64,000 bases of DNA from Acidithiobacillus marinus (lineage in GTDB: Bacteria; Pseudomonadota; Gammaproteobacteria; Acidithiobacillales; Acidithiobacillaceae). The notes under the pieces are model-generated. The model was not told where the DNA came from. It saw nothing but the letters and a program-made list of their open reading frames with translations, and did no database searches. The position numbers were made by a program, and so were the translations under genes. Location: positions 62,001-126,000 of the forward strand of contig NZ_MXAV01000036.1 of the NCBI RefSeq assembly GCF_002847505.1, given 5' to 3'. Shown in pieces: positions 19,057 through 57,813 of the stretch. The number at the start of each line of letters is the position of its first letter. Within the stretch, counting starts at the first letter, position 1.

Positions 19057-19713
19057 TCAATGCGGGGCAGGGGATGGTGGTACAGGCGTGGTCCCCTTGT
19101 GGGGGGCTGCAGTGGCCTTTCGGGCCGCAGCCTTGCTTTGTACCTGCAGATGATGGTCAATAGCGGCGGCTTCGCGGGGATTCAGAGAGCCGATAAGTGG
19201 CAACAGGACATAGGCTTCGTCAAAGTGCCCCAGACGAATCATGGTGCGAGCGGCGCTACCGTAGGCAATAGCGGCTTCTGGATACCTTCCAGTCATGTAG
19301 TATACATTGCCCAATTCCCCATAAATTCCAGGATGATCGGGCGCTTCCTTGAGCAACTTCTGGTAATCGGCAATGGCTTTCGGGGCGTCCCGTCGCCAGT
19401 AGGCCGCCCGTGCCTGTAACAGAAGCTTGGTTTCCGCCTTGCTCAAGGTTTTGGTCGAAGCTGGTTTGGGCATGGACAGGGCCGGAGGCGCCTTGATGTT
19501 CTTGTGCGGAGGATAAGACTTGGGCACTCCCGCATGGGTAGGTTTTTCGGGTACTGCGGCGGCCGCGTTGGCAATGATGCTACAAGACGAAATCCGGAGA
19601 TGGGCTCCGCTCGTCAACAGTTGCAGTCCGGTTCCCGCAAAAAGACAGGTCATCAGTGCTGCCGCCTTGAAAAGAGGTCGTCTGAGCCAAGAATTGGGGG
19701 AGGAATGATGCAT
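19057..19713 (-). CDS. Membrane-anchored or secreted TPR protein, paralogue 1 of 3
   Basis: A 218-residue protein with an N-terminal hydrophobic segment (LFKAAALMTCLFAGTGLQLL), a Pro/Lys/Ala-rich linker and a TPR-like domain at about residues 90-190 containing KAIADYQKLL, IYGELGNVYYMTGRYPEAAIAYGSAA and LLPLIGSLNP. The same domain occurs at 23958 and 24821. TPR repeats bind partner proteins, so these three proteins may scaffold an envelope assembly. Start MHHSSPNS at 19713 is chosen over 19758. It is the last gene of the run 20982-19057, after a ParA-like ATPase. Confidence 0.65.
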   Translation of the reverse strand: MHHSSPNSWLRRPLFKAAALMTCLFAGTGLQLLTSGAHLRISSCSIIANAAAAVPEKPTHAGVPKSYPPHKNIKAPPALSMPKPASTKTLSKAETKLLLQARAAYWRRDAPKAIADYQKLLKEAPDHPGIYGELGNVYYMTGRYPEAAIAYGSAARTMIRLGHFDEAYVLLPLIGSLNPREAAAIDHHLQVQSKAAARKATAAPHKGTTPVPPSPAPH

Positions 19714-19761
19714 GATAGGTGCGCCTCCATAATTGAGGTTAGATTCGGAAAATAACATGAT

Positions 19762-20382
19762 TCAGTCAGCAAAATGCCTGCATAGTTCCGGATAGAGTGC
19801 AGCTGCCAGTTTTTCCAGTTCATGGCTGGCCTTACTGCGGGCATCCAGTTCGAATACGGCTTGGGCTTCGCTGAGAGAGCGACGAAAGGCCGTGCGTTGT
19901 CCGAGACGCAGACCCAAAGGCTGGAGGCCGGGTAACTCTGCGAGCATGGCTTCCGCTTCATCACTTTCGCGGATGGCATGATGGGTGTCAGCACGATTGA
20001 TGAATGCCCTGACCGGGGGCGCCGACCATTGCCGGCAGACCTCCAGAAAACGCTGGGCTGACCAGATATCCGCCTGACTGGGGCCGACGGGCATCAGGAT
20101 GGCATCTGCAGCTGACAATGCGCGGCGAAAACCGGTTAACTCAGAATAGCTACAGTCCATCACCTGGTAGCGGGCGTCTGTGGCCTTGTCCAGACCAGTA
20201 GCCACAGTAAGCGCGGGATGAATCTGCAGGTCTTGGCGATCATGACAAACGTCCAGCAAAGTCCCCTGTGGGTCCAGATCATACAGTTTTACAGGAACCC
20301 GATAGGCCAGCCACACGGCCAGATTGAAACTGACCGTGCTCTTGCCGGACCCGCCTTTCATGGATGCTATGACCAGACGCAT
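19762..20382 (-). CDS. ParA/MinD-family ATPase
   Basis: A 206-residue P-loop ATPase of the ParA type. The deviant Walker A box reads KGGSGKST after MRLVIASM, switch I contains YDLDPQGTL and the adenine region MPVGPSQADIW. No ParB gene or parS-like site is nearby, and the chromosome partition locus is not here, so this is probably one of the ParA proteins that position a cell-surface machine or other cargo. It lies between a Gly/Pro-rich secreted protein and a TPR protein in a probable operon driven by a sigma-54 promoter at 21079-21094. Confidence 0.82.
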   Translation of the reverse strand: MRLVIASMKGGSGKSTVSFNLAVWLAYRVPVKLYDLDPQGTLLDVCHDRQDLQIHPALTVATGLDKATDARYQVMDCSYSELTGFRRALSAADAILMPVGPSQADIWSAQRFLEVCRQWSAPPVRAFINRADTHHAIRESDEAEAMLAELPGLQPLGLRLGQRTAFRRSLSEAQAVFELDARSKASHELEKLAAALYPELCRHFAD

Positions 20383-20445
20383 CAGTGCCCCATGCCGTTC
20401 TGGGTGAGAACCCATAAGGGTTCCCGGGCGGACCTGATGCTTGAT

Positions 20446-20982
20446 CTAGCGGCCGTATCCATAAGGGGAATACCCGTAGGGTGACTGATAAGGGCCCATG
20501 GGTGGTGGGGGCATGCTGGGACGCATCTGCTGCGGGTACTGTCCCTGGTTGGGCCTGGGATAGGCATAGCCTGGTTGGGGTGTCGGATAACGCGCATAGC
20601 CCTGACTTGGTCCGTAGTAGGGCTGCCTGTAAGATGGTTGCGGATAATAACCATAACTGCCACCCCCTTGATACTCGCCCCGGTAAGGCTGGCCGTATCC
20701 ACCATAGGGGCCGCTGTTCATGTTCATGGGACCGCCGCGTGGACCATTGAAGCTCATCCCACCCATATCCCAGGGACCATTGGAACCTTGCATGGGGCCG
20801 CCATAGCCACTGAAGGGGCCGCTGTTTCCGTTCATCGGACCACTATAACCGGACCAGGGCATATCGCCACCCCAGGGACCCCAAGCGTATGCAGGGGCTG
20901 CGATGAGCATCCCTGCGGCGCCGATGCCGGCTGCGATGGTCAGCGAACGTACAGCCCGTGCGAATTTTGATGAGTGCTGCAT
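20446..20982 (-). CDS. Secreted Gly/Pro/Tyr-rich protein, sulfur-globule-protein-like, paralogue 1
   Basis: A 178-residue exported low-complexity protein. A signal peptide ends at APAYA, followed by WGPWGGDMPWSGYSGPM and repeated GNSGPFSGYGGPM-type units, then a Gln/Tyr/Pro-rich tail ending YGYSPYGYGR. The aromatic/Gly/Pro/Asn composition resembles sulfur globule proteins, and the same WGPW..MPWS entry occurs in the proteins at 25536 and 26134. Start MQHSSKFARAV at 20982 is used. A sigma-54 promoter match lies 97-112 nt upstream. A role in coating or contacting elemental sulfur is inference from composition and from the organism. Confidence 0.7.
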   Translation of the reverse strand: MQHSSKFARAVRSLTIAAGIGAAGMLIAAPAYAWGPWGGDMPWSGYSGPMNGNSGPFSGYGGPMQGSNGPWDMGGMSFNGPRGGPMNMNSGPYGGYGQPYRGEYQGGGSYGYYPQPSYRQPYYGPSQGYARYPTPQPGYAYPRPNQGQYPQQMRPSMPPPPMGPYQSPYGYSPYGYGR

Positions 20983-21078: not shown

Positions 21079-21094
21079 AGCATACTATGTGCCA
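21079..21094 (-). promoter_or_regulatory. Sigma-54 (-24/-12) promoter for the 20982 unit
   Basis: On the minus strand TGGCACATAGTATGCT fits TGGCAC-N5-TTGCT with one mismatch, with exactly 10 nt between GG and GC. It should start transcription near 21069, leaving a leader of about 85 nt before the gene at 20982. Confidence 0.72.
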
Positions 21095-21194
21095 CGTTTT
21101 AACCTTTTGTTTTTTTAGATAACCTTTATCTGGACAAATAGGGTGCATGCAACGTAAATCATAAAAGTTGATGTTTTTTCAATCTGAAATAGAT

Positions 21195-21356
21195 TGTTGC
21201 AGGACAAATGTGGGCAACGCTCATTGCAACACTTGGAGGCGCGGAGAAAATTGAAGGCGAACTGGGGATATGTTGCAAAAGGGCTTGCAACAGCTGTTTC
21301 TGTCTGCTGAGCTTAGGCTGATGATTATGCATCATCATTTTAAATGAATGTTGCAT
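21195..21356. promoter_or_regulatory. Cluster of TGTTGCAA boxes, probable enhancer sites of the sigma-54 activator
   Basis: Five TGTTGCA-type half-sites occur in 162 bp: plus orientation at 21195-21201, 21271-21278 and 21349-21356, minus orientation at 21224-21231 and 21285-21292. The pair at 21271-21292 is TGTTGCAA-N6-TTGCAACA, a perfect 8-bp inverted repeat. They lie between two divergent sigma-54 promoters, at enhancer distance from each. The same box forms a palindrome at 32952-32970. Confidence 0.65.
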
Positions 21357-21408
21357 GTGTCATTTTTTCTTTTCATTGAAATTCTGTAGTTATCAGCAAC
21401 TTAAATTT

Positions 21409-21424
21409 TGGTATGAAATATGCA
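21409..21424 (+). promoter_or_regulatory. Weaker sigma-54 promoter for the SCP2-like gene
   Basis: TGGTATGAAATATGCA keeps the GG-N10-GC core but differs from TGGCAC-N5-TTGCA at three positions. Predicted start of transcription is near 21436, 55 nt before the gene at 21491. Confidence 0.5.
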
Positions 21425-21490: not shown

Positions 21491-21886
21491 ATGGCAGATT
21501 TGTTTTCACCCGCATGGATGGCCCGTTTTGCAGAAGAATGGAACAAGGATCCGGAACTTTCTGGTGCACTGGCTCAGATTGGCTTTAATTCAGTCATAGG
21601 TTATGGCTACCCTGAAGAAGATAAGCCCAGAGCGTTTCTGGTGGTACAAAACGGCAAGGCAACCGCTTCTGGGGTTTATACGGACCAGCCCCTCAATTGG
21701 GATATTCGGGCCCAGCATCCGCAATGGCTGAAGTGGATCGAAAAATCACCGGGAATGACCGGTCTGGGAATGGCCTTTACGACCGGAAAAATCAAATTCA
21801 AGGTGGGGGATTATGCCAGCATGCTCAAAGATCCGCGTATGGCGGGACCCTTTGTGAAAAGTTTTTCGGCTATGTCGAAAATTTAA
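21491..21886 (+). CDS. SCP2 sterol-carrier-domain-like protein
   Basis: A 131-residue cytoplasmic protein with an SCP2-like lipid-binding fold: ALAQIGFNSVIGYGYPEED, the strand pair AFLVVQNGKATASGVYTD, and the C-terminal TTGKIKFKVGDYASMLKDPRM that is typical of the family. Such domains bind lipids or other hydrophobic ligands. The ATG at 21491 has GGAG 8 nt upstream, excluding the ORF start at 21440. It is divergent from the Gly/Pro-rich gene and shares its intergenic regulatory region, so it is probably a member of the same regulon. A hydrophobic ligand such as polysulfane is conceivable but unproven. Confidence 0.7.
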   Translation: MADLFSPAWMARFAEEWNKDPELSGALAQIGFNSVIGYGYPEEDKPRAFLVVQNGKATASGVYTDQPLNWDIRAQHPQWLKWIEKSPGMTGLGMAFTTGKIKFKVGDYASMLKDPRMAGPFVKSFSAMSKI

Positions 21887-21942: not shown

Positions 21943-23319
21943 TTAATTGCCCAGGTGGCTATGGCTGTCTTTTCCGGAAATGCCCAAGCGGGACAGATGC
22001 CGCCACAGGGTGACACGATCAATGCCGAGTTCGCGCGCGGCAGCAGCACGATTGCCACCATGTTTATCAAGTAGTTGTAAAAGTTTATCGCGGCCATAAC
22101 CGGCGTCGCTTTCATGGTCCGCAGCAGTGGAGCTGGTCGCTGAGCCCGAATGCATTCTGTCGAGAAAATCCTTGGAAAAGTCACTGTCACTGATTTCCGG
22201 TCCGGCACTGCAAATAGCCACGTATTCCATGACATTGCGCAGTTCCCGAACATTTCCCGGCCAGGGATAATCGAGCAACAGATGTTTTGCTGCGGAACCG
22301 AGTTTTTTCTTGTGACCCCCGGCAGTGATTTTCAGGAAGTGTTCGGCCAGCAGCATGATGTCAGAAGGTCGTTCACGCAGAGCCGGAATCCGGATGGGGA
22401 TCACATTCAGGCGATAGAACAGGTCACTGCGAAAATCACCATTTTCTACCAGTTCCTTGAGATTACGATTGCTGGCTGCCACCACCCGCACATCCACTTG
22501 CTGGGTTTTGGTGCTGCCCACCGGCTCAAAGCGCATGTCTTCCAATACCTTCAGGAGTTTGGCTTGATGATGTTTAGGTAACTCGCTGACTTCATCCAGA
22601 AAGAGGGTGCCGCCATCCGCCGCTGCAAAGCGGCCGATCCGATCAGTGACGGCGCCTGTAAAGGCGCCTTTGACAGAGCCGAAAAACTCGGCTTCAAATA
22701 AATTGTCGGGAATGGCGGCGCAATTCACTTCGATCAGGGCTTTTTTGGCGCGATGACTTTGTTGGTGGAGCAAGCGGACCATCAGCCCCTTTCCCGATCC
22801 GGATTCTCCCTGAAAGATGACGCTGGCATCAGTGGCTGCGACCTGCTCTATCAATTCGAGGGCATCGCGCATATGCGGATCATCGGTAATAAAACCCACA
22901 CTGCGGGTGCCACCCAGAATCCGCTCGGCATGACGCAGCTCGGAAACATCTTCGATGAAAAAAATGCGCCGTTTATGTTGCTTGCGTTCGACCAGACGGG
23001 TTCTGATCTGGAGAGTTTTATGGTCGCCTTCACTGACCGGCAGCAAATGATCCCAACGAATACAGCCTGTTTGCGGGCGACTGACGGCGTCGTCCTGTCC
23101 GGCAGCAATAGCGGCCCGGACCAGTTCTTTTTGCACGCTGCCCCCCGGGATGCTGCGCAGGTGCTCAAGGCTTGGAACCTCCAGTAAGGACTTAGCGGCG
23201 GCGTTGCAGAATTCAATTTTTCCCTGAATATCTGTCAACAAAATCCCTGCATCCATGGAGTCCAGTAATTCGGGCAAGACTTCACAGAGGGTTTCCAGTT
23301 CGGTGCTCAGCGATGCCAT
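21943..23319 (-). CDS. Sigma-54-dependent transcriptional activator, PAS-AAA+-Fis
   Basis: A 458-residue enhancer-binding protein. An N-terminal PAS-like sensor (about 15-125, LLDSMDAGILLTDIQGKIEFCNAAAKSLL) is followed by the AAA+ domain with Walker A GESGSGKG, the sigma-54 contact loop GAFTGA, Walker B GGTLFLDEVSEL and a Fis-type HTH at the end (GNRAAAARELGIDRVTLWRHLSRL). It has no receiver domain, so it is not a simple response regulator; the PAS domain would sense a ligand or redox state directly. The start at 23319 has AGGAG 6-7 nt upstream. It ends the nine-gene run and very likely controls the three sigma-54 promoters found here, including its own operon. Confidence 0.9.
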   Translation of the reverse strand: MASLSTELETLCEVLPELLDSMDAGILLTDIQGKIEFCNAAAKSLLEVPSLEHLRSIPGGSVQKELVRAAIAAGQDDAVSRPQTGCIRWDHLLPVSEGDHKTLQIRTRLVERKQHKRRIFFIEDVSELRHAERILGGTRSVGFITDDPHMRDALELIEQVAATDASVIFQGESGSGKGLMVRLLHQQSHRAKKALIEVNCAAIPDNLFEAEFFGSVKGAFTGAVTDRIGRFAAADGGTLFLDEVSELPKHHQAKLLKVLEDMRFEPVGSTKTQQVDVRVVAASNRNLKELVENGDFRSDLFYRLNVIPIRIPALRERPSDIMLLAEHFLKITAGGHKKKLGSAAKHLLLDYPWPGNVRELRNVMEYVAICSAGPEISDSDFSKDFLDRMHSGSATSSTAADHESDAGYGRDKLLQLLDKHGGNRAAAARELGIDRVTLWRHLSRLGISGKDSHSHLGN

Positions 23320-23353
23320 TGTTTTCTCCTGGGCTAGCACCGCGCTCTCGGGG

Positions 23354-23854
23354 TTACTGGTTGCCATAGGCATTCCCCTGGTACGGATAGCCACTTTGAT
23401 ATTGCGGATTATATCCTGGTGCTACCCCATCATAGGCTTCCTGGCGGGGAGGGGGTAGGGGAGCCCGGGGTCCGTAAGTAGGGTCATTATGATTGAAGGG
23501 CAACATGCCACTGAGAAAGGAAAAAGGTGGAGTGATGTTGCGGTTCAGGCTCCAGAACTCAGCCTGCATCTGCCCGGTGGCCCGCGCCATATAGTTGGTG
23601 GAATGAGTCATTTGCGTCATGTTTCGGGACATGCTGTCCATGTTGCGCTGAATATTGGGACTCATTTTCTGGAACTGCACGGTCATCTCATGCAGATCAT
23701 GGGACATTTCCACGGCCAGATAAAACTCATAGGCCGCCAGCACCAGAAAGGCGACCAGGGCTGCATAAACAATCAGTCTGAGCTGGCGGTCCGAAAGGCC
23801 GGCAATATGATGCTGAGGCTGCGAGGATGACTCCGTAGTCGATTGTTCCGCCAT
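23354..23854 (-). CDS. Single-helix membrane protein with coiled coil and Pro/Gly/Tyr tail
   Basis: A 166-residue bitopic protein. One helix (LRLIVYAALVAFLVLAAYEFYL, about 26-47) precedes a Met/Asn/Gln-rich amphipathic stretch (MTVQFQKMSPNIQRNMDSMSRNMTQM) that looks like a coiled coil, then a tail rich in Pro, Gly, Tyr and Asn ending YPYQGNAYGNQ. No known family. The tail composition echoes the secreted proteins encoded upstream, so it may bind them at the inner membrane. It is followed 34 nt later by the activator gene. Confidence 0.55.
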   Translation of the reverse strand: MAEQSTTESSSQPQHHIAGLSDRQLRLIVYAALVAFLVLAAYEFYLAVEMSHDLHEMTVQFQKMSPNIQRNMDSMSRNMTQMTHSTNYMARATGQMQAEFWSLNRNITPPFSFLSGMLPFNHNDPTYGPRAPLPPPRQEAYDGVAPGYNPQYQSGYPYQGNAYGNQ

Positions 23855-23957: not shown

Positions 23958-24800
23958 TCAAGCCGGAGGCATCCCGGTTTCCGCTTCCGGGGCGTGAGAA
24001 AGCGCTTCCTGCACTTTTTGCGCTTCTGCCGGATCCAGCCGACCAAGAATAGGAATCAGCGCCGCGCCATCGGCATAGCGTCCTGCATGAATCAGCTGCA
24101 TGGCCGCCTGGCCATAGGCGTTACCGGCCTGATGATAGTGCCCGGTCATATACAGAACATTGCCCAGTTCTCCATAAGCGGCAGGAGAATCAGGGGCTTC
24201 CTGGATCAGGTGATGGTAGTCGGCGATGGCGCCGGTGTAGTCATGATGCCAGAAAGCACCGCGTGCCTGCATGAGTAGCTTGGTCTGATCGGGGGTCAGG
24301 GGCTTGTTGTTATGCGTGATGGCGGCAATGCTGGGAGCACTGGTGACATGCAGGACTTTCTGCGCGGGCTGGGTAGGCGCTGCGGCAGTTTTGCTGGGTT
24401 CATTGGCGGTTATGGCCCAAATGAACAAAATGACAATGATGATCAGCAAAATCAAAATGATCAGGGGGTATCCGACAAAACGGCTGATTCCCCCCTTCTT
24501 TTGGGCGGGTGGTGGTGGAGGGGGAGAATAACTACTGTAACTGGAACTGCTCGCGGCTGCGGCAGCGGCTGCAGCAGCCGCCGCCGCCGCCCTAGCTGCC
24601 GCATCGGCATCTGCAGTGGTGCTGGTGCTGGTGCTGGATTCAGCAGCCTGGTGGGACTGCTCGCTGCCGGTGTGTAACGATTCTGTATCCACATGTGCTG
24701 CGGGAGTTTCGGTTTCTACGATGGTTTCGGTGCTGCCTTCGGCCGGACTGACAACGGCATTTTCGTCATGCAAATGCGGCTCTTCTCGAATGTCACTCAT
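23958..24800 (-). CDS. Bitopic TPR protein with poly-Ala/poly-Pro segment, paralogue 2 of 3
   Basis: A 280-residue protein. The cytoplasmic N-terminal 110 residues are acidic and Ser/Thr-rich, then contain a run of about 13 Ala, a Ser/Tyr patch and six Pro. A single strong helix (YPLIILILLIIIVILFIWAI) follows, then a Pro/Ala linker and the shared periplasmic TPR-like domain (TKLLMQARGAFWHHDYTGAIADYHHL, AAYGELGNVLYMTGHYHQAGNAYGQAA, ILGRLDP). The mixed topology suggests a link between a cytoplasmic partner, perhaps the ParA-like ATPase, and the envelope. No published family recognised. Confidence 0.62.
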   Translation of the reverse strand: MSDIREEPHLHDENAVVSPAEGSTETIVETETPAAHVDTESLHTGSEQSHQAAESSTSTSTTADADAAARAAAAAAAAAAAAASSSSYSSYSPPPPPPAQKKGGISRFVGYPLIILILLIIIVILFIWAITANEPSKTAAAPTQPAQKVLHVTSAPSIAAITHNNKPLTPDQTKLLMQARGAFWHHDYTGAIADYHHLIQEAPDSPAAYGELGNVLYMTGHYHQAGNAYGQAAMQLIHAGRYADGAALIPILGRLDPAEAQKVQEALSHAPEAETGMPPA

Positions 24801-24820: not shown

Positions 24821-25435
24821 TTAACGCGCCAGGGCCTGGCGGATGAGGGTGGCCTGATTCGGGTCCAGGGAACTGATCAGGGGTAATAGTGCAGCGGCAG
24901 AGGGATATTGATGTGCAGCGATCAAGCTCCTGGCAGCGCCGGTATAAGCCTTGCCAGCCGACAAAGGATGGCCTGTCTGATAGTAAATATTCCCCAATTC
25001 TCCATAAAGTTCAGGAACTTCAGGAAGTTGTGCGATGAGCGCATGGTAATCGGCGATAGCGGCTTTCACATTGTGGTTCCAAAACGCCTGGCGCGCGGCC
25101 ATCAACAAGGCGTACTGAGACTGGGTGAGATTTTTGGGAAAACGGACTTTTGCAGGCGCTGCCACGGGGACTGGATGTGTGGCTATATCCGGTTTTGCCG
25201 GGACAGCTGCCGATGTCACCGGCACCGCTGGCGGATGTGTGGACTGCGTGGAAGGCGGCGTGCTTTCCTGGTTTTCCCACCATTGGTGCATCGCCAGCCA
25301 TTTTTGCTCGGTGTACTGGCGCGTATTCTGCCAGTCATGGCGCCAGAGCTGGGGATACTGAATGGCAGCTATGACGATCAGAACCAGGACTACCAGAATA
25401 ATAAACCCAATGATTTTACCCAATATTTGTTTCAT
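24821..25435 (-). CDS. Membrane-anchored TPR protein, paralogue 3 of 3
   Basis: A 204-residue protein with an N-terminal anchor (ILGKIIGFIILVVLVLIVIAAI), a Ser/Thr/Pro-rich linker and the shared TPR-like domain (MAARQAFWNHNVKAAIADYHALI, ELYGELGNIYYQTGHPLSAGKAYTGAA, LLPLISSLDPNQATLIRQAL). It lies 20 nt before the other bitopic TPR gene and is surely co-transcribed. Alignment by eye with the proteins at 19057 and 23958 shows a common core of AIADY..L, YGELGN.YY.TG and a final L-P-A motif. Confidence 0.62.
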   Translation of the reverse strand: MKQILGKIIGFIILVVLVLIVIAAIQYPQLWRHDWQNTRQYTEQKWLAMHQWWENQESTPPSTQSTHPPAVPVTSAAVPAKPDIATHPVPVAAPAKVRFPKNLTQSQYALLMAARQAFWNHNVKAAIADYHALIAQLPEVPELYGELGNIYYQTGHPLSAGKAYTGAARSLIAAHQYPSAAALLPLISSLDPNQATLIRQALAR

Positions 25436-25535: not shown

Positions 25536-26057
25536 TCATGGATATCCATAACCGGGACGATAAGGTCCTGGAGGAGGTGCATACTGCTGCTGATTGTCGG
25601 TATAGGGGGTTGCCTGGGGCGGCGCGTAATAGCCGTCAGGGTTTTCCTCAGGGTAATTGCCGTATGCAGGATAACTGGCTGTTGCGGGAGGATAAGCCTG
25701 CGGTGCTGGTGGGTAAGCATAACCGTTGTCGGGTTCACCACCATAGCCTCCACCGTAATAGCCACGGTAAGGCTGGCCGTAAGCGCCCCAATGGCCACTG
25801 TTGAACTGCATGGGACCTCCATGGGGACCATGAAAGCTCATGCTCCCCATATCCCAGGGACCGCTGTTTCCGGTAAAGGGGCCGCCATAACCGCTGAATG
25901 GTCCGCTATTTCCCCAGAAAGGATTGCTATAACTACTCCAGGGCATCTCATTCCAAGGTCCCCAACCCCAGGCATAGGCGGGTGAAGCCATCATGAATCC
26001 GGCACATCCCAAGGCTGCTGCAAGACTGGCCGCTTTTGCGAAATATTTTATTTTCAT
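25536..26057 (-). CDS. Secreted Gly/Pro/Tyr-rich protein, paralogue 2
   Basis: A 173-residue exported protein. Signal peptide MKIKYFAKAASLAAALGCAG through ASPAYA, then WGWGPWNEMPWSSYSNPFWGNSGPF with repeated GPF.GYGGPF.GNSGPW units and a long Pro/Tyr/Gln tail. The start at 26057 has AGGAG 8 nt upstream, excluding the longer frame from 26117. It is closely similar to the protein at 20446 in its first half. Likely a structural surface or sulfur-globule-type protein; this is inference from composition. Confidence 0.7.
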   Translation of the reverse strand: MKIKYFAKAASLAAALGCAGFMMASPAYAWGWGPWNEMPWSSYSNPFWGNSGPFSGYGGPFTGNSGPWDMGSMSFHGPHGGPMQFNSGHWGAYGQPYRGYYGGGYGGEPDNGYAYPPAPQAYPPATASYPAYGNYPEENPDGYYAPPQATPYTDNQQQYAPPPGPYRPGYGYP

Positions 26058-26093
26058 CGTACAGACTCCTTTGCAAAACTGCGTCACTACCCA

Positions 26094-26112
26094 TTCAGTG
26101 GACGCCACTGAA
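26094..26112. other. Intercistronic perfect hairpin
   Basis: TTCAGTGG and CCACTGAA pair perfectly around a 3-nt loop, between the genes ending at 26134 and starting at 26057. It is one of three strong hairpins in the gaps of this operon. Confidence 0.55.
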
Positions 26113-26133
26113 ACCATATCCCATTGAAATGAC

Positions 26134-26661
26134 TTACCAGGTACTCCAAGGGCTCATGGGACCCATCGGCGACATGGGATTCATGGAGGACATAGGACTC
26201 CAGGGCATGCCACCACCGCCCCAGGGCATACCGCCACCACCCCAGGGCATACCGCCACCACCCCAAGGCATGCCACCACCACTCCAGGGCATACCGCCAC
26301 CACCCCAGGGCATACCGCCACCGCCCCAGGGCATGCCGCCATAGCCTGACCAGGGGCGACCATATCCCCCGAAAGGGCTGCCATTGAAATTCATGGGTCC
26401 CCAATGCGGAAAGGTCATATGAAAACTGCCCATACTCCAGGGACCGCTCCTACCCTGCCATGGGCCACCATAACCGGACCATGGTCCGGAATCGCCCTGC
26501 CACGGATTGGAATAGCCACTCCAGGGCATGGCGTTCTGCCAGCCTGACCAGGGCATTTCTCCGCCCCCCCAGGGCCCCCAGGCATAGGCCGCAACGGGTA
26601 CAGATAAGCTTCCAAGGGCGGCAGATAGAATGGCTGCCTTTAACCATTTTGCTGTTTGCAT
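26134..26661 (-). CDS. Secreted Trp/Gly-rich repeat protein, paralogue 3
   Basis: A 175-residue exported protein. The signal peptide ends at VPVAAYA, then WGPWGGGEMPWSGWQ and GYSNPWQGDSGPWSGYGGPW units. The middle holds seven tandem heptads of the MPWGGGG kind, and the end is Met/Pro/Ser-rich. The very high Trp, Gly and Met content is unusual and would favour a compact, hydrophobic, perhaps amyloid-like or sulfur-binding surface. It follows the gene at 26710 by 48 nt. Confidence 0.7.
   Translation of the reverse strand: MQTAKWLKAAILSAALGSLSVPVAAYAWGPWGGGEMPWSGWQNAMPWSGYSNPWQGDSGPWSGYGGPWQGRSGPWSMGSFHMTFPHWGPMNFNGSPFGGYGRPWSGYGGMPWGGGGMPWGGGGMPWSGGGMPWGGGGMPWGGGGMPWGGGGMPWSPMSSMNPMSPMGPMSPWSTW
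26199..26345. repeat. Seven tandem 21-bp coding repeats
   Basis: The 21-bp unit with core CCCCAGGGCATACCGCCAC is repeated seven times within the gene at 26134-26661, encoding GGMPWGG heptads on the minus strand. Units differ at a few third positions, so copy number can change by slippage without breaking the frame. Confidence 0.88.
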
Positions 26662-26709: not shown

Positions 26710-27843
26710 TTATGGGTAGCCATAACTAGGTTGCGGACCATAAAACTGCGGTGGTCGGGCTTCGGGATGCGGTCCATAAGGTGAAGGTCCGTATGCAGGC
26801 GCGCCAAAATCGGGCCTGGGGCCGTTTTGCCAGGGCCTGTTGGCGCCCGGATAGGGCGCAGGTGGCATGGGTCCATAGTTTGACTGGCCATACGCCGGGG
26901 GCGGTCCATCATGGGGTCCCTGCGGGTATTCCATGGGCGGGTATCCTCTGCCGTTCATGGTATTACCGTAAGCGCCATCATCGGGTCCCGGACCATATTG
27001 GGGTGGCCGGGCGAAGGATGGCGGTGGTCCATAGGCGGGTTGGCCGTAAGCCGGCACATTTGGATGAGGCGCGGCATAAGCAGGCCTGGTAGCGTTCTGC
27101 CAGGGCCTGTTGGCGCCCGGGTAGGGCATGGGACCCATGGGCCCGAAGTCGGGTCTGCCATAGGATGGGAATGGTCCATGGTAGGGCCCCTGTGGATAAC
27201 CTACAGGAGGAGGATAGCCTGCGCCTTTCATTGGCGTGCCGGGGGCTTCATACCCCGGTCCCGGACCATAATATTGGGGTGGCTGGGCGTAAGGACCCGC
27301 TGCGTATGCCGGGGGACCATAAGCCGGACCGGCGGCGCTCTGTCCAGGCATGGCGGGACCGCCGTAAGGTGCAGGTCGCATGGATCCGTAATTTGCTTCG
27401 CCCTCACCTGGGGCTGCTGGATAGGCGGGCATGTATCCGCCTTGAGGAGCGCCCATGGAAGATGGCGCTGTGGCATCCATGCCCCCTTCATGGGATCCGT
27501 TGGGATAAGGTCCGGGTGGAGGGGGTACCCAGTCTGCGACTTCGTTGAATGTTGCTGTGGGCATGGGTGTTTGCGGCCGGTGCCAGTTGTTGCTGGCTGC
27601 GGGTGGGTTGGGCATGTCATGCGGCGCGTAACCATGCCATTCGGCGTAGGTGGAATCAGCGGACCAGTCAGAGCTTGTATTACCGGCCATGCCAGGGTTG
27701 TTGGCATAGGGACTGGGGATAGAGTAGGGCGTATCTACCGCTGCCAAGGCCTGGGCCTGCATACCCACTGCTGTACACACTGCCACACCCAGCCAGAACA
27801 AATGTTTGCGGCTGCGCGGTGCGCGGGATTGAGGGCGCGTCAT
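26710..27843 (-). CDS. Large secreted Pro/Gly/Tyr/Ala-rich protein
   Basis: A 377-residue exported protein. A signal peptide with a basic start (MTRPQSRAPRSRKHLFWLGV) and AQALAA cleavage region precedes a low-complexity chain in which PYGGP, AYGPPP, PYPGANRPWQN and PQGPYHGP-type units recur; PYPGANRPWQN occurs twice and starts a duplicated block of about 90 residues. No fold is recognised. The start at 27843 has AGGAGG 9 nt upstream, which overlaps the end of the RND gene, so the two are translationally close. Probably a structural envelope component of the same assembly as the proteins that follow. Confidence 0.68.
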   Translation of the reverse strand: MTRPQSRAPRSRKHLFWLGVAVCTAVGMQAQALAAVDTPYSIPSPYANNPGMAGNTSSDWSADSTYAEWHGYAPHDMPNPPAASNNWHRPQTPMPTATFNEVADWVPPPPGPYPNGSHEGGMDATAPSSMGAPQGGYMPAYPAAPGEGEANYGSMRPAPYGGPAMPGQSAAGPAYGPPAYAAGPYAQPPQYYGPGPGYEAPGTPMKGAGYPPPVGYPQGPYHGPFPSYGRPDFGPMGPMPYPGANRPWQNATRPAYAAPHPNVPAYGQPAYGPPPSFARPPQYGPGPDDGAYGNTMNGRGYPPMEYPQGPHDGPPPAYGQSNYGPMPPAPYPGANRPWQNGPRPDFGAPAYGPSPYGPHPEARPPQFYGPQPSYGYP

Positions 27844-27847
27844 GGTA

Positions 27848-30800
27848 TTAATCCTCCTTTTTTGATGGGGAACTGGGTGACCGTAAATGAATGCCACGCC
27901 CTTTGTTTCGTGAGGCTGGTTGCGTTGCTTTTGCATCCGGTACCTGCGCGACATTGGGGGCTTGACGGCCGTCGTCGGACTGGCTGGCGCTTTCCGCCTG
28001 CGAGGCCGTCGGTTTGACAGGCTCTGGCGGACGACCAGTCGGGCCTGGATTCGGGTTGATGGGGCCAGAAGGGCTATGGGGATCGGGCCATTCAGGAGGG
28101 TTGTGGGTGGCTGGTCGTTGTAGTAACCAGGCCCAGAGTTGTCCCCATAAAGCCGCCAGGATTTTGCGAATGGCTAGGAAAAAAGCGCGAATATCCTGTC
28201 CGATCATATCCAGGGTCATGCGCAGTGGACCCGCATCTTGCCGCTTTGTGTCCTGCGCCGGGGTGCTTGCTGGAATATCGCTGCGCGTCAGGCTTTCTCT
28301 GGGAGTCAGGGACACCTGGAGATGTTCCGGGGCAAAAGGAAAAAGTGCTGCGCCGGTACCATTGGGGGCGTCGCCCAGATCCATGCCCGCCGGACAGAAG
28401 GCCGCACGCCCGCTCACGCAGCCCAGGGGAATAACCAGCAGGGTGAGAACGGTAGAAACCATGACCCCGAAGAGCAGGGAAATGCCCATGCCCCGAAAAA
28501 TCGGCGAAGTGATGATTTCTGCAGAACCCAGCATTAATGCCAGCGCCGTAATGACAATGGGGCGGGTGCGGGTTGCACAGGCCTCAATCAGGGCGTCCAT
28601 GACTGGCATGCCTTCGGCCACCCGTTGCTGGGAATAATCCACCAGCAGAATGGAGTTGCGCACGATGATGCCCGCGAGGGCGATGAAGCCGATCATGGAG
28701 GTGGCCGTAAAGCTCGCGCCAAACAGCCAGTGGCCGGGCAAAATCCCGATCAGGGTGAGGGGGATAGGCACCATGATGATGGCGGGAATGACAAAATTAC
28801 CGAATTCCCAGACCACCAGCATATAGATGAGGATGATGGCCACCGCAAAGGCAATCCCCATATCCCGGAAGGTCTTGTAAGTGACGGTCCAGGCACCACC
28901 CCATTTGATGGTGGCATGGGTACCCGAGGGAATGCTGATCCAGTCGATCCCTAGGGGATGCCCATCGGGTGCGACATAACTGGTCAGGGCATTTTCGACT
29001 TCCAGCATGCCGTACAGCGGCGCATCCAGGCGCCCTTTGCAGCCGGCCGTCACATATTCCACCGGTTTGAGATCCTGCTGGTAAATGGGTTGTTCAGCGG
29101 GACGACGATCAAAATGGCCGAGGGTGTAAAGGGGAACGGCGCCGTAACTCACCGAGGGTACCGGCAATGCCGCTAAACTATAGACGTTACTGCGCAGGGC
29201 CAGAGGCGCCTGGAGCACGGCGGGTACGGCCAGATTCTGACCGTAAGGGGTGAAGTTACCCAGCTTGTAGCCGCCCAGCGTCATCGCCAGGGTGGCATTA
29301 AGAGCACTGGGGCGTACCCCCGCCATGCCCGCCTTGATGGCATTCAGATGAAAATGCCAGTAATCGTGTGGGGCTTCGAGGGTGTTATCCACCTCCGTCA
29401 GGTTCTCTGTCTGCTGGAATACCTGGGTGACATGCCGGGTGACCGCATCGCGGATGGCCGCCGAAGGTCCATAGACTTCGGCAACGACGGGGGCCAGCAC
29501 TGGTGGCCCCGGCGGGCTCTGCACTACCTGGATATGCGCCTGATGTTGCATGGCGATGGACATGATCCGCTGCCGGGCGACGACCGCCAGTGCCGCACTG
29601 GAAGCACTGCGTTCGGCCTTGCTCAGCAACTGCACATGGATCATGGCCTGCCAGGGTTTATCGCGTAAATAGTAGTGACGGACCATGCCATTGAAATCAT
29701 AAGGTTCTGGCGTGCCCACATAACTTTGTAAGGCCTGGACATCTTTCATTCCCTGCAAGCTTTGCACTACTTCGGCGGTGACATTGGCGGTCACGGGCAT
29801 GGCCGTACCGGCCGGCATGTTAATGACGACATTGAAGGCGCTGGAGTTGCCGTGGGGGAGCATGGTGAAAGGCACCCACTCGATCAGAAACAGGGCAAGG
29901 CTCGCAAAAAAGGCCACGACGATCCCACCCAGAAACAGGCGCCCGTAAAACTTGCGACGAATCAGCGGGATCAGGGTGTTCTGATAAAATTTGTGTAACC
30001 AGGCGGCCTGGCGATGTTCGCTGCGGTGCATCCGTTCCAGACTTTTCAGGCTGGGTTTGAAGCGCAGTATCAACCAGGGCGCCAGGGCAAAGGCGGTGAA
30101 CAGGGAGAACAGCATGGCTACCGAACCGAGGACGGGGATGGGCGCCATGTAAGGTCCCATCATCCCCCCCACAAACCCCATGGGCAACAGCGCGGCAATC
30201 ACGGTAAAGGTCGCCAGAATAGTGGGATTACCTACTTCGCGGACGGCATCAATGAGAGTTTCCGTGGAGGTGCTTCCCTCCTGTAACCAGCGCCTGTAAA
30301 CGTTCTCGACGATGACGATGGAGTCATCCACCAGAATACCAATGGAGAAAATCAAGCCGAAGAGACTGACACGGTTGATGGTAATGCCCAATAACCAGGC
30401 CGAAAACACCGTAATCAGCAAAATCAGGGGAATGGTGATGACCACGACAGCGGCGGCTCGCCAGCCCAGTGCCAGCAAGATCAGCAGGGTGACTGCTGCG
30501 GTGGCGACAAACAGCTTGAAAAGCAGGGAATCCACCTTGGCATTGGCTTTTTTGCCGTTATCGCGAGTGATGCTGACATGCACATTGCCGGGAATGACCG
30601 TCCCTTCGAGGCTGTGCATTTTCTGAATCAGGGCATGGGCCACCGTAACGCCATTACTGCCGGCAATTTTGGCCAGGGCGATGGTGACCGCAGGAGCGCC
30701 ATTTACTTCAGGCTGGTTTTTGCCGACTTTTTGATAGTAGGTCACCAGACTATGGGGATCACTGGGGCCGAGGCGCACCTGAGCCACCTGAAACAAATAC

Positions 30801-31624
30801 ACAGGTTCCCCGTCATAAACACCCACCACCAGATTGCGCACTTCAGCCGGGGTGCGCAGAAACTGTCCGGTAACCACTCGCATCTGCATGTTCTGCACAT
30901 CGGTCTGCCCGGTTTCGGTCTGAGCGTTGGATGCTTCTATGGTTTGCGCCACTTGCTGGGGCGTGATTCCATAAGCGGCCAGACGTTCAGGATGAATGTC
31001 GACGGTCAGGGCTTCCTGGGGACCATGCACAATGAAACTCTCACCGGTCTCAGGCACCTGTTTCAGATGCTGCAGGGCGGTCCGCGCGATTTCATTCAGG
31101 GTGGCAGGCCCCACTGCTTTGGACCAGAGGGTGAAGGTCATGAAGGGTACACTGTTGATACCTTTGGCCCGCACCAAAGGATGGGTAGCTCCCGGGGGAA
31201 TCCGGTTCATATTGGCGGCCAGTTTGTTATAGACCTCCACCAGCGATGGCCCCATCCGTTTGCCCACCTGAAAACGCACGGTGACCATGGACTCGCCCCG
31301 ATTGGACACCGAATATACATGCCGCACCCCGGGCAGTTCACTCATCATGCGTTCCAGGGGGTCACTGACCATGCGCGATACTTCAGCAGGAGAATGGCCG
31401 GGATAACCCACAAAAATATCAATCATGGGCACGGAAATTTGGGGATTGGAGGCTCTGGGGGTAGAAATCAGGCCGAGAATGCCCGCCGCGATCAGCACAA
31501 TGAGCAGTAATGGGGCCAAAGGCGAGCTGACAAAAATCTTGGCAATGGAGCCTGCCACTCCCAAACTGCGGGTGTGCGTAGTTTGCGGCTGTTCCGGCTC
31601 GGGTGTCTGGCAACCGTTATGCAT
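27848..31624 (-). CDS. RND-family transporter with long C-terminal extension
   Basis: A 1258-residue RND permease. It has the usual two-fold layout of 12 helices with two large periplasmic loops, the proton-relay aspartates in GILVDDSIVIVENVYRRW, and GIIVRNSILLVDYSQQ in the second half. RND pumps usually have 1020-1060 residues; the extra length is mainly a tail of roughly 180 residues after the last helix that is Pro/Gln/Ser-rich and contains one amphipathic stretch (FFLAIRKILAALWGQLWAWLL). It follows its membrane-fusion partner by 5 nt. No outer-membrane factor is in the operon; the TolC protein at 6920 could supply it. The genes that follow encode exported low-complexity proteins, which suggests the pump serves that envelope system. 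Confidence 0.85.
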   Translation of the reverse strand: MHNGCQTPEPEQPQTTHTRSLGVAGSIAKIFVSSPLAPLLLIVLIAAGILGLISTPRASNPQISVPMIDIFVGYPGHSPAEVSRMVSDPLERMMSELPGVRHVYSVSNRGESMVTVRFQVGKRMGPSLVEVYNKLAANMNRIPPGATHPLVRAKGINSVPFMTFTLWSKAVGPATLNEIARTALQHLKQVPETGESFIVHGPQEALTVDIHPERLAAYGITPQQVAQTIEASNAQTETGQTDVQNMQMRVVTGQFLRTPAEVRNLVVGVYDGEPVYLFQVAQVRLGPSDPHSLVTYYQKVGKNQPEVNGAPAVTIALAKIAGSNGVTVAHALIQKMHSLEGTVIPGNVHVSITRDNGKKANAKVDSLLFKLFVATAAVTLLILLALGWRAAAVVVITIPLILLITVFSAWLLGITINRVSLFGLIFSIGILVDDSIVIVENVYRRWLQEGSTSTETLIDAVREVGNPTILATFTVIAALLPMGFVGGMMGPYMAPIPVLGSVAMLFSLFTAFALAPWLILRFKPSLKSLERMHRSEHRQAAWLHKFYQNTLIPLIRRKFYGRLFLGGIVVAFFASLALFLIEWVPFTMLPHGNSSAFNVVINMPAGTAMPVTANVTAEVVQSLQGMKDVQALQSYVGTPEPYDFNGMVRHYYLRDKPWQAMIHVQLLSKAERSASSAALAVVARQRIMSIAMQHQAHIQVVQSPPGPPVLAPVVAEVYGPSAAIRDAVTRHVTQVFQQTENLTEVDNTLEAPHDYWHFHLNAIKAGMAGVRPSALNATLAMTLGGYKLGNFTPYGQNLAVPAVLQAPLALRSNVYSLAALPVPSVSYGAVPLYTLGHFDRRPAEQPIYQQDLKPVEYVTAGCKGRLDAPLYGMLEVENALTSYVAPDGHPLGIDWISIPSGTHATIKWGGAWTVTYKTFRDMGIAFAVAIILIYMLVVWEFGNFVIPAIIMVPIPLTLIGILPGHWLFGASFTATSMIGFIALAGIIVRNSILLVDYSQQRVAEGMPVMDALIEACATRTRPIVITALALMLGSAEIITSPIFRGMGISLLFGVMVSTVLTLLVIPLGCVSGRAAFCPAGMDLGDAPNGTGAALFPFAPEHLQVSLTPRESLTRSDIPASTPAQDTKRQDAGPLRMTLDMIGQDIRAFFLAIRKILAALWGQLWAWLLQRPATHNPPEWPDPHSPSGPINPNPGPTGRPPEPVKPTASQAESASQSDDGRQAPNVAQVPDAKATQPASRNKGRGIHLRSPSSPSKKED

Positions 31625-31629
31625 GGCGC

Positions 31630-32766
31630 CTACTCCCCGGAAGTTGCACTGGTCTGGAGCTGGTAACCTGAACCAACGCCGGCGGGGGGGTCATTGACGA
31701 TGATCTGGCCAACGCGCAGTCCGGCCAGTACCTGCACCTGCCCATCAGCCAGCGGTCCACCCAGACGCAGGACATGCATTTCGGTCACCCCATGCTGATC
31801 GACCAGTACAGAGGGTAATGAGGCTCCCGGTATCAGAGCGCTCCGGGGAATGGCGGGTTCATCCTGGGCAGCACTGCCATAGCTGGGCAGACTGATGGTC
31901 GCATAGGCGCCCACCCCGATGGCGGCATTTTGCGGGAGGCGGACCTTGACGGCTACCGTATGGGTTTGGGGATTGGCCTGGGGGGCCACCTGGACCACTC
32001 TGCCCGTCACCTCGCCAGCGTTGTCCCCGAGATGCACCTGCAGGGATTCTCCGGGATTCAGATTACCTGCCAGACTCTCCGGCACCTTGACCAGAAGTTG
32101 TCGGGGGCCACCACTACCGAGCACCATGAGCGGCTGACCGGGCTGAACGATATCGCCGGGATTCACCTCCTTTTCGAGGACCACCCCTTGAAAGGGGGCA
32201 ATGGAAACCGAATTGTTCATTTCCGCCTCAATCTGACGGATTTTCCAGACGGATGCCTCCAGTTGAGTTTGCGCTTTCATGGCTGTGGCAGCGCGATTTT
32301 CCAGATTGGACTGATAAGTGGCCCAGGGATTCTGGTTGTTGCCCATCATGGCTTTGAAGCCCTCACCCATCCAGGTAAAGGGATTCATGAAGGAGGGCGG
32401 ATTGTAACTATACAGTTGATAACCATACTGGGAATAACCATTGTGCAGCGCCACTTCATCCGCTTGGTAAGCGGCAATGGCCTGGGCTTTCTGGGCAAGC
32501 AACTGATCATCATCCAGCGCCACCAGCGGCTGTCCCGGCATGACGGGCATGCCAGCTTCACCCGCTACAAATTTGACTCTGCCGGGTAACTGGGCGCGCA
32601 AGGTCACGGTAAATGCCGGGATAATCCGTCCTCCCAGCATTGGACCAATGCCGGGAGCCGCTTGCACGCTCACCAGGCTGGGAGTTGCCGCCAGGGCCGT
32701 TCCCCCCGCCGCAGCAAACAGAAGGGATCCGCAAAACATGGTGCAGCGCCAGATATTCCTTTTCAT
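31630..32766 (-). CDS. RND periplasmic adaptor (membrane fusion) protein
   Basis: A 378-residue adaptor with signal peptide (MFCGSLLFAAAGGTALA), a split biotinyl-lipoyl domain (VTLRAQLPGRVKFVAGEAGMPVMPGQPLVAL and VSIAPFQGVVLEKEVNPGDIVQPGQPLMVL), a helical hairpin between them and a beta-barrel region. The hairpin is interrupted by an unusual Tyr/Asn/Pro/Met-rich stretch (YSQYGYQLYSYNPPSFMNPF) whose composition recalls the secreted proteins of the cluster. Start 32766 is supported by AAGGA 8 nt upstream. It is the first gene of the nine-gene run and has a sigma-54 promoter 62-77 nt upstream. Confidence 0.85.
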   Translation of the reverse strand: MKRNIWRCTMFCGSLLFAAAGGTALAATPSLVSVQAAPGIGPMLGGRIIPAFTVTLRAQLPGRVKFVAGEAGMPVMPGQPLVALDDDQLLAQKAQAIAAYQADEVALHNGYSQYGYQLYSYNPPSFMNPFTWMGEGFKAMMGNNQNPWATYQSNLENRAATAMKAQTQLEASVWKIRQIEAEMNNSVSIAPFQGVVLEKEVNPGDIVQPGQPLMVLGSGGPRQLLVKVPESLAGNLNPGESLQVHLGDNAGEVTGRVVQVAPQANPQTHTVAVKVRLPQNAAIGVGAYATISLPSYGSAAQDEPAIPRSALIPGASLPSVLVDQHGVTEMHVLRLGGPLADGQVQVLAGLRVGQIIVNDPPAGVGSGYQLQTSATSGE

Positions 32767-32827: not shown

Positions 32828-32843
32828 AGCAGAAACTGTGCCA
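32828..32843 (-). promoter_or_regulatory. Sigma-54 (-24/-12) promoter of the RND operon
   Basis: On the minus strand TGGCACAGTTTCTGCT matches TGGCAC-N5-TTGCT with one mismatch and the required 10 nt between GG and GC. Transcription should start near 32817 and give a leader of about 50 nt. Confidence 0.78.
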
Positions 32844-32951
32844 ATATATAACATCATGTAAAATTTGAGTTTTATGGTATTTGTGAAAATGTCTCGCAAC
32901 GATGGGATTTTATACTGGCTTGTTTCCGCAGCGGTTTGGCATGTTGAAGCG

Positions 32952-32970
32952 TTGCAACAGCCTGTTGCAA
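32952..32970. promoter_or_regulatory. Perfect palindrome TTGCAACAG-C-CTGTTGCAA, probable activator enhancer
   Basis: A 9-bp perfect inverted repeat with a 1-nt centre, about 110-125 bp upstream of the sigma-54 promoter, the normal distance for an enhancer. The same half-site recurs five times at 21195-21356 upstream of the other two sigma-54 promoters. Confidence 0.72.
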
Positions 32971-56667: not shown

Positions 56668-57813
56668 CTATGAAGCTGACTGTTTCTGCCGACTATTCCG
56701 CCAAGCCAGCCAAAGCAGGGGGATCGCCCAGAGGGCGGAAAAGGTATAAATCTGATTCAGAGAAATGAAATGTTGCAGCGGGCCAAGACCCGTCGAACCG
56801 ATACCTTCGCCAATCATCAGCGCGCCCACCAGCAGCCCGGCCATTTGCGTGCCTTCCTTGCCATGCGCAGCGACGCCGAAGGCCATGCTGTAGGGATAGT
56901 AAATGCCACAAGCGGCTCCAGCCAGTGCAAATGCTAGTAACAGTGCCGTTGCACTGACCAGATGGGGTATGACGACAAAACAGGCCGCCATGCCGATGGG
57001 GGCCAAGCGATAGACCCAGCGTCTGGAAAGCAGGTGATCGGGAATGCTGCCCAAAATGAACCGGGCAACGGTCATGCCACCCCAAAACAGAGAAAGTGCC
57101 AGGGCGCCTGTCGCAGCCGGTAGATGGTGATCTACACTGACGAGCACATTCGCCCAGCTGCCGAAGCTGCCTTCACAAATCGCATAGATCACCACAGCAA
57201 AAGCGAAAGGCATCATGGAGCGTCGCCAGGCGCGCAAGCCACCGATTTCTTGAGTGTCTTTATCTTCTGCAAGCGGAAATAGTAGTAAAACCAGCCAGAG
57301 CAGGAGGATGAGAGCAGGCCAGGCAACCCAGCTCAACCAACTTTGCGCGCCAGTCAGAATCATGGGTGATACGGCGGTTGCACCGCCAATGACGGCGTTC
57401 AGAATAGTGACAGCCGCTGCGGCAGCACCGGCAAAAAGGAGGGATGCCGCCCGATTGATCGCGGCGTTAGTCAATCCGAAGCCAATGCCAAGCATGAGTG
57501 TTTCAGCCAGCAGTAACAGGACAACAAAAAGCCCCGAGCTGAAAAAAGCCACTACCAGTAAAGTCATGGCGATGGCATTGCTGATCGCTCCCAGGCGAAA
57601 CAACCCTTTGCTTCCCAGTCGCTTATGAATAGCTCCTGCACTTAAAGCCGCCAATATGGCGCCAATGATTTCCGGAAAATACAACATGCCATAAGTGGCA
57701 TTACTCATGTCGTAGGGAGCGCTGCGCAGCGTAGTACCCAGTGCCGGAATCAGCACAAAAGCAGCTCCCTGCAAGAAGCCAGCGATATATACTGCGCTGA
57801 GGCCGCGTTTCAT
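56668..57813 (-). CDS. MFS transporter, probable sugar or sugar-acid carrier
   Basis: A 381-residue carrier with 11-12 helices, short loops and no tail. Motif A-like segments are weak (GAIHKRLGSKGLFRLGAI, SIPDHLLSRRWVYRLAPIG). The first helix region GFLQGAAFVLIPALGTTL recalls the FucP/NarK-unlike sugar MFS group, but substrate cannot be assigned from sequence. Its position inside a glucan/glucose oxidation operon suggests transport of glucose, gluconate or an oligosaccharide. The ATG overlaps the stop of the GMC gene by 4 nt. Confidence 0.78.
   Translation of the reverse strand: MKRGLSAVYIAGFLQGAAFVLIPALGTTLRSAPYDMSNATYGMLYFPEIIGAILAALSAGAIHKRLGSKGLFRLGAISNAIAMTLLVVAFFSSGLFVVLLLLAETLMLGIGFGLTNAAINRAASLLFAGAAAAAVTILNAVIGGATAVSPMILTGAQSWLSWVAWPALILLLWLVLLLFPLAEDKDTQEIGGLRAWRRSMMPFAFAVVIYAICEGSFGSWANVLVSVDHHLPAATGALALSLFWGGMTVARFILGSIPDHLLSRRWVYRLAPIGMAACFVVIPHLVSATALLLAFALAGAACGIYYPYSMAFGVAAHGKEGTQMAGLLVGALMIGEGIGSTGLGPLQHFISLNQIYTFSALWAIPLLWLAWRNSRQKQSAS

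Follow-up and report, generated by a model that had tools for sequence, protein, structure and literature searches.

The window, a 64,000-nucleotide stretch of the genome of the sulfur-oxidising acidophile Acidithiobacillus marinus (contig NZ_MXAV01000036.1, positions 62,001 to 126,000), carries a predicted nine-gene operon on the reverse strand, running from 32766 to 21943 and recognised from gene order and domains. The first two genes match families of RND systems: a periplasmic adaptor of the HlyD/CusB type (hlyD, 31630-32766) and an inner-membrane permease (ACR_tran, 27848-31624). They are followed by genes for a proline/glycine/tyrosine-rich protein without a family match (26710-27843), a small Trp/Gly/Pro-rich protein, also without a family match and with an apparent signal peptide as judged by eye (26134-26661), and a paralogue of the latter and of the product of 20446-20982 (25536-26117). 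Genes 6 and 7 (24821-25435 and 23958-24800) encode proteins with TPR domain matches that appear by eye to be membrane-anchored, and gene 8 (23354-23854) encodes a small protein whose family was not recognised. The operon ends with a gene (21943-23394) for a putative activator with matches to PAS, sigma-54 AAA+ and Fis-type HTH domains. A first-pass annotation, made from the DNA letters, had proposed the nine-gene operon and the Fis-type activator, and gene order and domains bear out both.

A second operon on the reverse strand comprises genes for a Pro/Gly/Tyr-rich protein that looks by eye to be exported (20446-20982), a ParA-like ATPase (19762-20415) and a TPR protein (19057-19758). Diverging from it, on the forward strand, is the gene for a 131-aa SCP2-like protein (21491-21886), so named from its predicted fold. 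The Pro-rich proteins bear a resemblance to sulfur-globule proteins, but a link to that group was set aside, the five that were scanned having no matches in Pfam or NCBIfam. No Pfam match was found for the 131-aa protein. In its structure model (mean pLDDT 69.8, moderate), the best PDB matches were to sterol carrier protein 2 (E 2e-4, TM 0.54), which the modelled fold most resembles. According to a passage of PMC10853474, membrane vesicles of 'Fervidacidithiobacillus caldus' contain a protein predicted to be a sterol carrier protein. Elsewhere in the window, the N-terminal part of ORF 14963-16282 matches the Druantia DruA family, and its C-terminal part matches an ISAs1 transposase fragment.

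The activator has a sigma-54 interaction AAA+ domain (PF00158, E=2.1e-65), a Fis-type HTH (PF02954, E=2.9e-9) and PAS matches at the N-terminus, with no receiver-domain match at E 0.001. Its true start is probably the ATG at 23319 (Met26), because homologues of 58-64% identity align from residue 22-34 on. The protein is 98% identical to one of Acidithiobacillus montserratensis GG1-14 and 89-90% identical to those of A. sulfurivorans, A. concretivorus and Acidithiobacillus sp. HP-2. The sigma-54 contact loop reads GAFTGA in six orthologues of genus group g1 (the window's included) and in a second copy in genome G001, and GAYTGA in five homologues of groups g4/g2, genera that we guess to be caldus-like. 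Around the recognition helix, all 12 homologues compared, the window's among them (58-100% identity to the window protein), share the stretch ARELGIDRVTLWR without any difference, which is what an unaltered DNA code would lead one to expect. The genome encodes RpoN (PF04552) once, and sigma-54 activator domains were matched strongly 14 times and weakly a further five times. Ten C-termini were recovered from the 13 other strong activators, and all differ at ARELGIDRVTLWR, the nearest reading GISRVSLYR. Among the N-terminal cysteines, only Cys111 is invariant across the 12 homologues. The structure model of the activator was of low confidence (mean pLDDT 47.5) and was left out of the argument.

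The second activator copy in G001 (contig C19, L070 7566-13502; 64% identical) has its own TPR genes and SCP2-like gene and lies beside another sigma-54 activator gene. Two metagenome bins, titled Phycisphaera mikurensis and Desulfobacca acetoxidans (L031, L035), include this Acidithiobacillus activator with 89-90% identity, which makes the bins or their names look wrong.

By pattern match, each of the three predicted transcription units is preceded by a sigma-54-like -24/-12 site: TGGCACAGTTTCTGCT (32828-32843, reverse strand) before the nine-gene operon, TGGCACATAGTATGCT (21079-21094, reverse strand) before the 20446-20982 operon and TGGTATGAAATATGCA (21409-21424, forward strand) before the SCP2-like gene. 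The fourth strict site of the window, at 58712, is inside ORF 57810-59324. A palindrome had been reported about 110 bp upstream of the first of these sites; TTGCAACAGCCTGTTGCAA was found there at 32952-32970, with 108 bp between the two elements. One hundred shuffles of the window yielded nothing that matched it, and the 2.9-Mb genome has a single exact copy. The palindrome's two half-sites are 11 bp apart, start to start, and with an overlapping third core (32951-32956) they form a distal group at 32950-32970 to which no strand was assigned. Closer to the promoter lies a degenerate half-site, GTTGCG (32895-32900, reverse strand), 57 bp upstream of TGG; this proximal position of the hlyD promoter is occupied by GTTGCA in G001, G010, G015 and G016.

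Between the divergent sites at 21079 and 21409, the core GTTGCA or its complement TGCAAC occurs six times within 21148-21355 (starts 21148, 21196, 21225, 21272, 21286 and 21350; no strand assigned), and the outermost two, which lie 59 bp from their respective promoters, are the proximal sites. The five half-sites announced for this region in the first-pass annotation correspond to the 7-mer TGTTGCA, which does occur five times; the exact octamer TGTTGCAA occurs three times (21224, 21271 and 21285). On its own the octamer is not rare: it was counted 7 times in the window against 3.5 expected, and 4 of 100 shuffles contained at least as many. It is the clustering of cores that stands out: the 314 bp of the divergent region have 6 and a 216-bp region near the 32828 promoter has 3, where the density elsewhere in the window predicts 0.15 and 0.11. 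The same annotation held that a motif equally frequent away from sigma-54 promoters would speak against an operator. The octamer is widespread (117 copies genome-wide versus 19 for the reversed control, 5 of the 117 in the two array regions) and the exact palindrome is unique, while among 100 octamer places listed of the 117, inspection by eye found no others where a pair of octamers falls within 300 bp without overlap.

Employing the pattern TGGYAYRN5TGCW, which was fitted to the window's three sites and may miss other sigma-54 promoters, we found 48 matches in the genome and 8 for the reversed pattern. In the 300 bp upstream of these 48 sites, the window's three have 6, 6 and 4 cores, while a single core was counted at 3 of the others and no core at the remaining 42; the background per 300 bp is 0.19 across the whole window and 0.12 at 28 loci belonging to other sites. 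Arrays at just 3 of 48 sites indicate that the motif is specific to the cluster and no general mark of sigma-54 promoters. The claim that it lies next to every sigma-54 site thus holds for three of the four strict sites in the window but fails genome-wide. Two cydA copies of this genome have sigma-54-like sites 83-88 bp upstream of the domain matches (G000:C20:30398-30413 and G000:C24:29379-29394; L101, L103). Neither site has a GTTGCA array, and further bd oxidases may therefore be under the control of different activators.

We compared 29 Acidithiobacillaceae genomes. A homologue of the activator (at least 58% identity over most of its length) is present in 11 of them, and the RND adaptor (HlyD) and the SCP2-like protein (at least 64%) are present in the same 11; the SCP2-like count leaves out two distant matches (29-32%), one of them in a twelfth genome, G003. 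All 11 activator genomes carry half-site arrays. From fetched loci we picked 29 array promoters in the 11 genomes, each with a sigma-54-like site and at least two cores in 300 bp, core position being free; they come from related genomes and so are not independent, and the sigma-54 pattern is the one fitted to the window's three sites. They precede hlyD, the Pro-rich operon, the SCP2-like gene, cydA or an SQR-like gene. A sigma-54 site of the same pattern lies before hlyD in 9 of the 11 genomes; in G027 the sequence there, identified by eye, is AGGCACGAACTATGC, and in G017 the pattern had no match.

An array precedes cydA in G001, G010 and G016. The SQR-like gene lies behind cydAB in these three genomes and behind an array in G015, and none is found beside the window's arrays; it matches the SQR model with 85 bits, far under the cut-off of 525. 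The RND and Pro-rich operons share one divergent region in g4 and g2 and are apart in the window's lineage. In G010 and on contig C19 of G001, an unknown ORF separates the array promoter from the SCP2-like gene. ORFs that look transposase-like by eye lie between array promoter and target at the SCP2-like gene of G016 (L068 14044-15126) and the Pro-rich gene of G021 (L074 1859-3070). In G016, whose genome is a single contig, the Pro-rich/ParA operon is at 1.06 Mb and the activator gene 1.0 Mb away at 2.08 Mb; that the distant operon retains its promoter and array argues for action in trans on the sites.

The proximal half-site is locked in position. In 28 of the 29 promoters it starts 56-61 bp before the TGG of the -24 element with at most one mismatch, and in 19 of the 29 it is exact; the flanking windows (-95 to -68 and -55 to -28) contain no exact cores and one-mismatch cores in at most 2 of 28. 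No proximal site within two mismatches was found in the SCP2-like promoter of G022. A second peak of half-sites lies at -108 to -125, with distal copies near -115/-125. T or C precedes GTTGCA in 45 of 47 sites, which gives the half-site YGTTGCA. As a binding unit, the palindrome was rejected: 8 of the 10 target regions measured are without a TGCAAC-N5-GTTGCA pair. A genome scan for the palindrome at three mismatches returned ten further places versus two for the reversed pattern. The sequences support YGTTGCA, in arrays of 2-7, as the predicted operator unit, rather than the palindrome.

When the lock itself was used as a query (GTTGCA-N49..56-TGGYAYN6TGC), the 29 genomes gave 44 matches in 21 genomes, and the reversed control gave 3. 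By our own sorting, 19 of the 44 are cluster promoters, and every one of the 11 activator genomes has one or more of them. Of the remaining 25, 9 fall in activator genomes and 16 in ten other genomes; they often recur with identical sequence in different species, and they look like coding sequence. Among matches examined as loci, the 13 at the cluster have a spacer AT content of 0.60-0.83 and 3-7 cores, and 16 of 17 others have 0.33-0.48 and 1-3 cores. The exception, L151 (G023:C12:23449-23520), is a lone match with a spacer AT content of 0.90 and one core, in a genome without a close activator homologue.

An IHF-like element, WATCAANNNNTTR, has its best forward-strand match 18 bp before TGG in 20 of the 29 promoters and is full in 8, with ties given to the position nearest the promoter and a mean best score of 7.9 versus 7.0 in shuffles. 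One example is 21391-21403 of the window (8/9); the window's hlyD promoter scores 6/9. The element abuts the -24 element, which is close for a usual IHF site.

In the target regions, GTTGCA is the 6-mer with the top z-score, counted 28 times against 2.5 expected in g4/g2 and 19 times against 2.2 in g1, although in shuffled g1 regions some other 6-mer was counted up to 21 times, above the 19 of GTTGCA. In a five-genome alignment of the divergent region, GTTGCA forms four aligned blocks, each conserved in at least 4 of 5 rows. The next hexamers in rank, GCAACA (four blocks) and CGTTGC (two), overlap GTTGCA, and the rest of the 960 hexamer families have one block or none. The block count was used in place of a Fisher test on alignment columns, which is biased by the choice of sites.

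We consider it very likely, judging from the sequences compared, that the YGTTGCA arrays are upstream activating sequences of the PAS-AAA+-Fis activator encoded at 21943-23394. The first-pass annotation had assigned the motif to this protein as its operator, and that part is favoured by the position lock, the co-occurrence in 11 of 29 genomes, the distant target in G016 and the invariant helix stretch; the palindrome as the unit and the motif as a general sigma-54 mark (45 of 48 sites have no core or one) were given up. That the palindrome is not conserved as a unit and that the 32828 promoter has a degenerate proximal GTTGCG count against the assignment. So do the G022 promoter that lacks a proximal site, the 25 matches of the lock pattern away from the cluster, the ORFs that separate some array promoters from the SCP2-like gene, and the additional sigma-54 activator gene next to the second copy in G001.

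The arrays could also be operators of a different regulator, one found throughout the Acidithiobacillia, with NtrC as the foremost candidate. The NtrC site, TGCACC-N5-GGTGCA, has the same spacing as TGCAAC-N5-GTTGCA and differs by one base per half, and the palindrome repeats the half-site geometry of 11 bp from start to start. NtrC-type systems and one-component PAS sigma-54 activators also share with the present system the AAA+ activator with a GAFTGA loop and a Fis HTH, and the NtrC-type UAS shares the dyad half-sites upstream of a -24/-12 promoter. The half-site of NtrC is GGTGCA, whereas here it is GTTGCA, in arrays whose copies point in either direction and whose proximal copy is fixed in position, and the activator has PAS and no receiver domain. 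The paired arrangement that makes the likeness is the one lacking from most target regions, and the 45 other sigma-54-like sites of the genome, which are expected to include NtrC targets, are without GTTGCA arrays. Sections of a 2025 survey of Acidithiobacillia infer an NtrC regulon and report the NtrC system in all Acidithiobacillia (PMC12194929), but the arrays accompany the cluster's activator in its 11 genomes (the 18 genomes without it were scanned for arrays solely by the GTTGCA-N49..56-TGGYAYN6TGC pattern). Control of the arrays by NtrC or a similar general regulator is accordingly improbable.

The arrays might instead bind a repressor or a nucleoid or accessory protein that modulates these sigma-54 promoters while the activator binds elsewhere. 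Footprints cannot be read from sequence, and accessory factors are common at sigma-54 promoters. Against this, GTTGCA is the most conserved block family of the divergent region, with runners-up that are overlapping versions of itself; the sites are at positions expected for an activator; and the sole regulator gene recognised in the conserved cluster is that of the activator. We rate such a modulator as improbable as NtrC. Chance clustering carried along by common descent, without function, is the least credible account: the genomes are related and TTGCAACA is just mildly enriched in the window (7 versus 3.5), but the cores persist among g4/g2 genomes whose intergenic identity is 0.44-0.63, arrays occur at four kinds of target (hlyD, Pro-rich, SCP2-like and cyd/SQR-like), one of them distant, and finding 6 cores in 314 bp has an estimated Poisson probability of 1.6e-8, uncorrected for the choice of the region.

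With the arrays taken as sites of the encoded activator, the circuit would work as follows. Through its invariant recognition helix, the activator would bind pairs or clusters of half-sites, proximally at -56 to -61, distally at about -115/-125 and, in divergent regions, at greater distances too; it would then assemble its AAA+ ring at the array and remodel the sigma-54 RNA polymerase of the neighbouring promoter. With the activator gene standing last in the operon that the 32828 promoter heads, the activator would positively autoregulate its own circuit. We infer binding, ring assembly, activation and autoregulation from knowledge of the family. The predicted regulon in this genome consists of three operons: RND/Pro-rich/TPR/activator, Pro-rich/ParA/TPR, and the SCP2-like gene. 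The regulon would also take in cydAB or an SQR-like gene in four relatives (G001, G010, G015 and G016), and the arrays there hint at sulfide, polysulfide or the quinone redox state as the signal in the PAS domain; our choice of these signals is a guess.

FisR of Cupriavidus and Acinetobacter, which serves sulfide-oxidising genes, is likewise a sigma-54 activator, and in some relatives an SQR-like gene lies behind an array promoter. The present system differs in that no persulfide dioxygenase was recognised in the blocks read and no SQR-like gene lies beside the window's arrays. FisR uses three N-terminal cysteines; sensing of this kind does not fit the present activator, in which Cys111 is the sole invariant N-terminal cysteine. 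The passages of PMC7315123 that describe FisR give no operator sequence. TspS/TspR of A. caldus and A. thiooxidans exemplifies sigma-54 dependent regulation in the same bacteria, but it is a two-component system controlling sox-II, whereas the activator here has no receiver-domain match and the enriched motif is GTTGCA. The TspR UAS, TGTCCCAAATGGGACA, and the RsrR site, AACACCTGTTACACCTGTT, as given in passages of PMC6335251, are both unlike GTTGCA arrays.

In the sections examined of PMC12194929, 546 Acidithiobacillia proteins have a sigma-54 activator domain; just the 318 receiver-bearing ones are sorted into named groups, nine orthogroups, and the window's PAS-type activator was not found among these. 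The passages of PMC10531304 say nothing of the cluster, and at the level of titles and the starts of abstracts, we found no description of a GTTGCA-array operator. Very probably, to judge by its conservation among the genomes compared, the operator system is real and functional-looking, a newly recognised but conventional regulatory circuit.

A broader reading, which we offer as a tentative and rather doubtful one, is that a PAS activator sensing sulfide, polysulfide or the redox state of the quinone pool brings an extracellular apparatus for handling sulfur (the RND pump, Pro/Trp-rich secreted proteins, TPR proteins and SCP2-like carrier) under common control with a sulfide-tolerant bd oxidase and the SQR-like enzyme, through YGTTGCA arrays with a locked proximal copy, in a subset of acidithiobacilli. 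This subset may, we presume, be the sulfur-only oxidisers. The assignment of the arrays to the activator gives an orphan sigma-54 activator a predicted DNA code and a bounded regulon, and in some acidithiobacilli it connects an uncharacterised cluster of RND and secreted-protein genes with those for bd oxidase and an SQR-like enzyme. The PAS-type activator and its sites would extend the map of sigma-54 regulation drawn, in the sections considered here, by PMC12194929.
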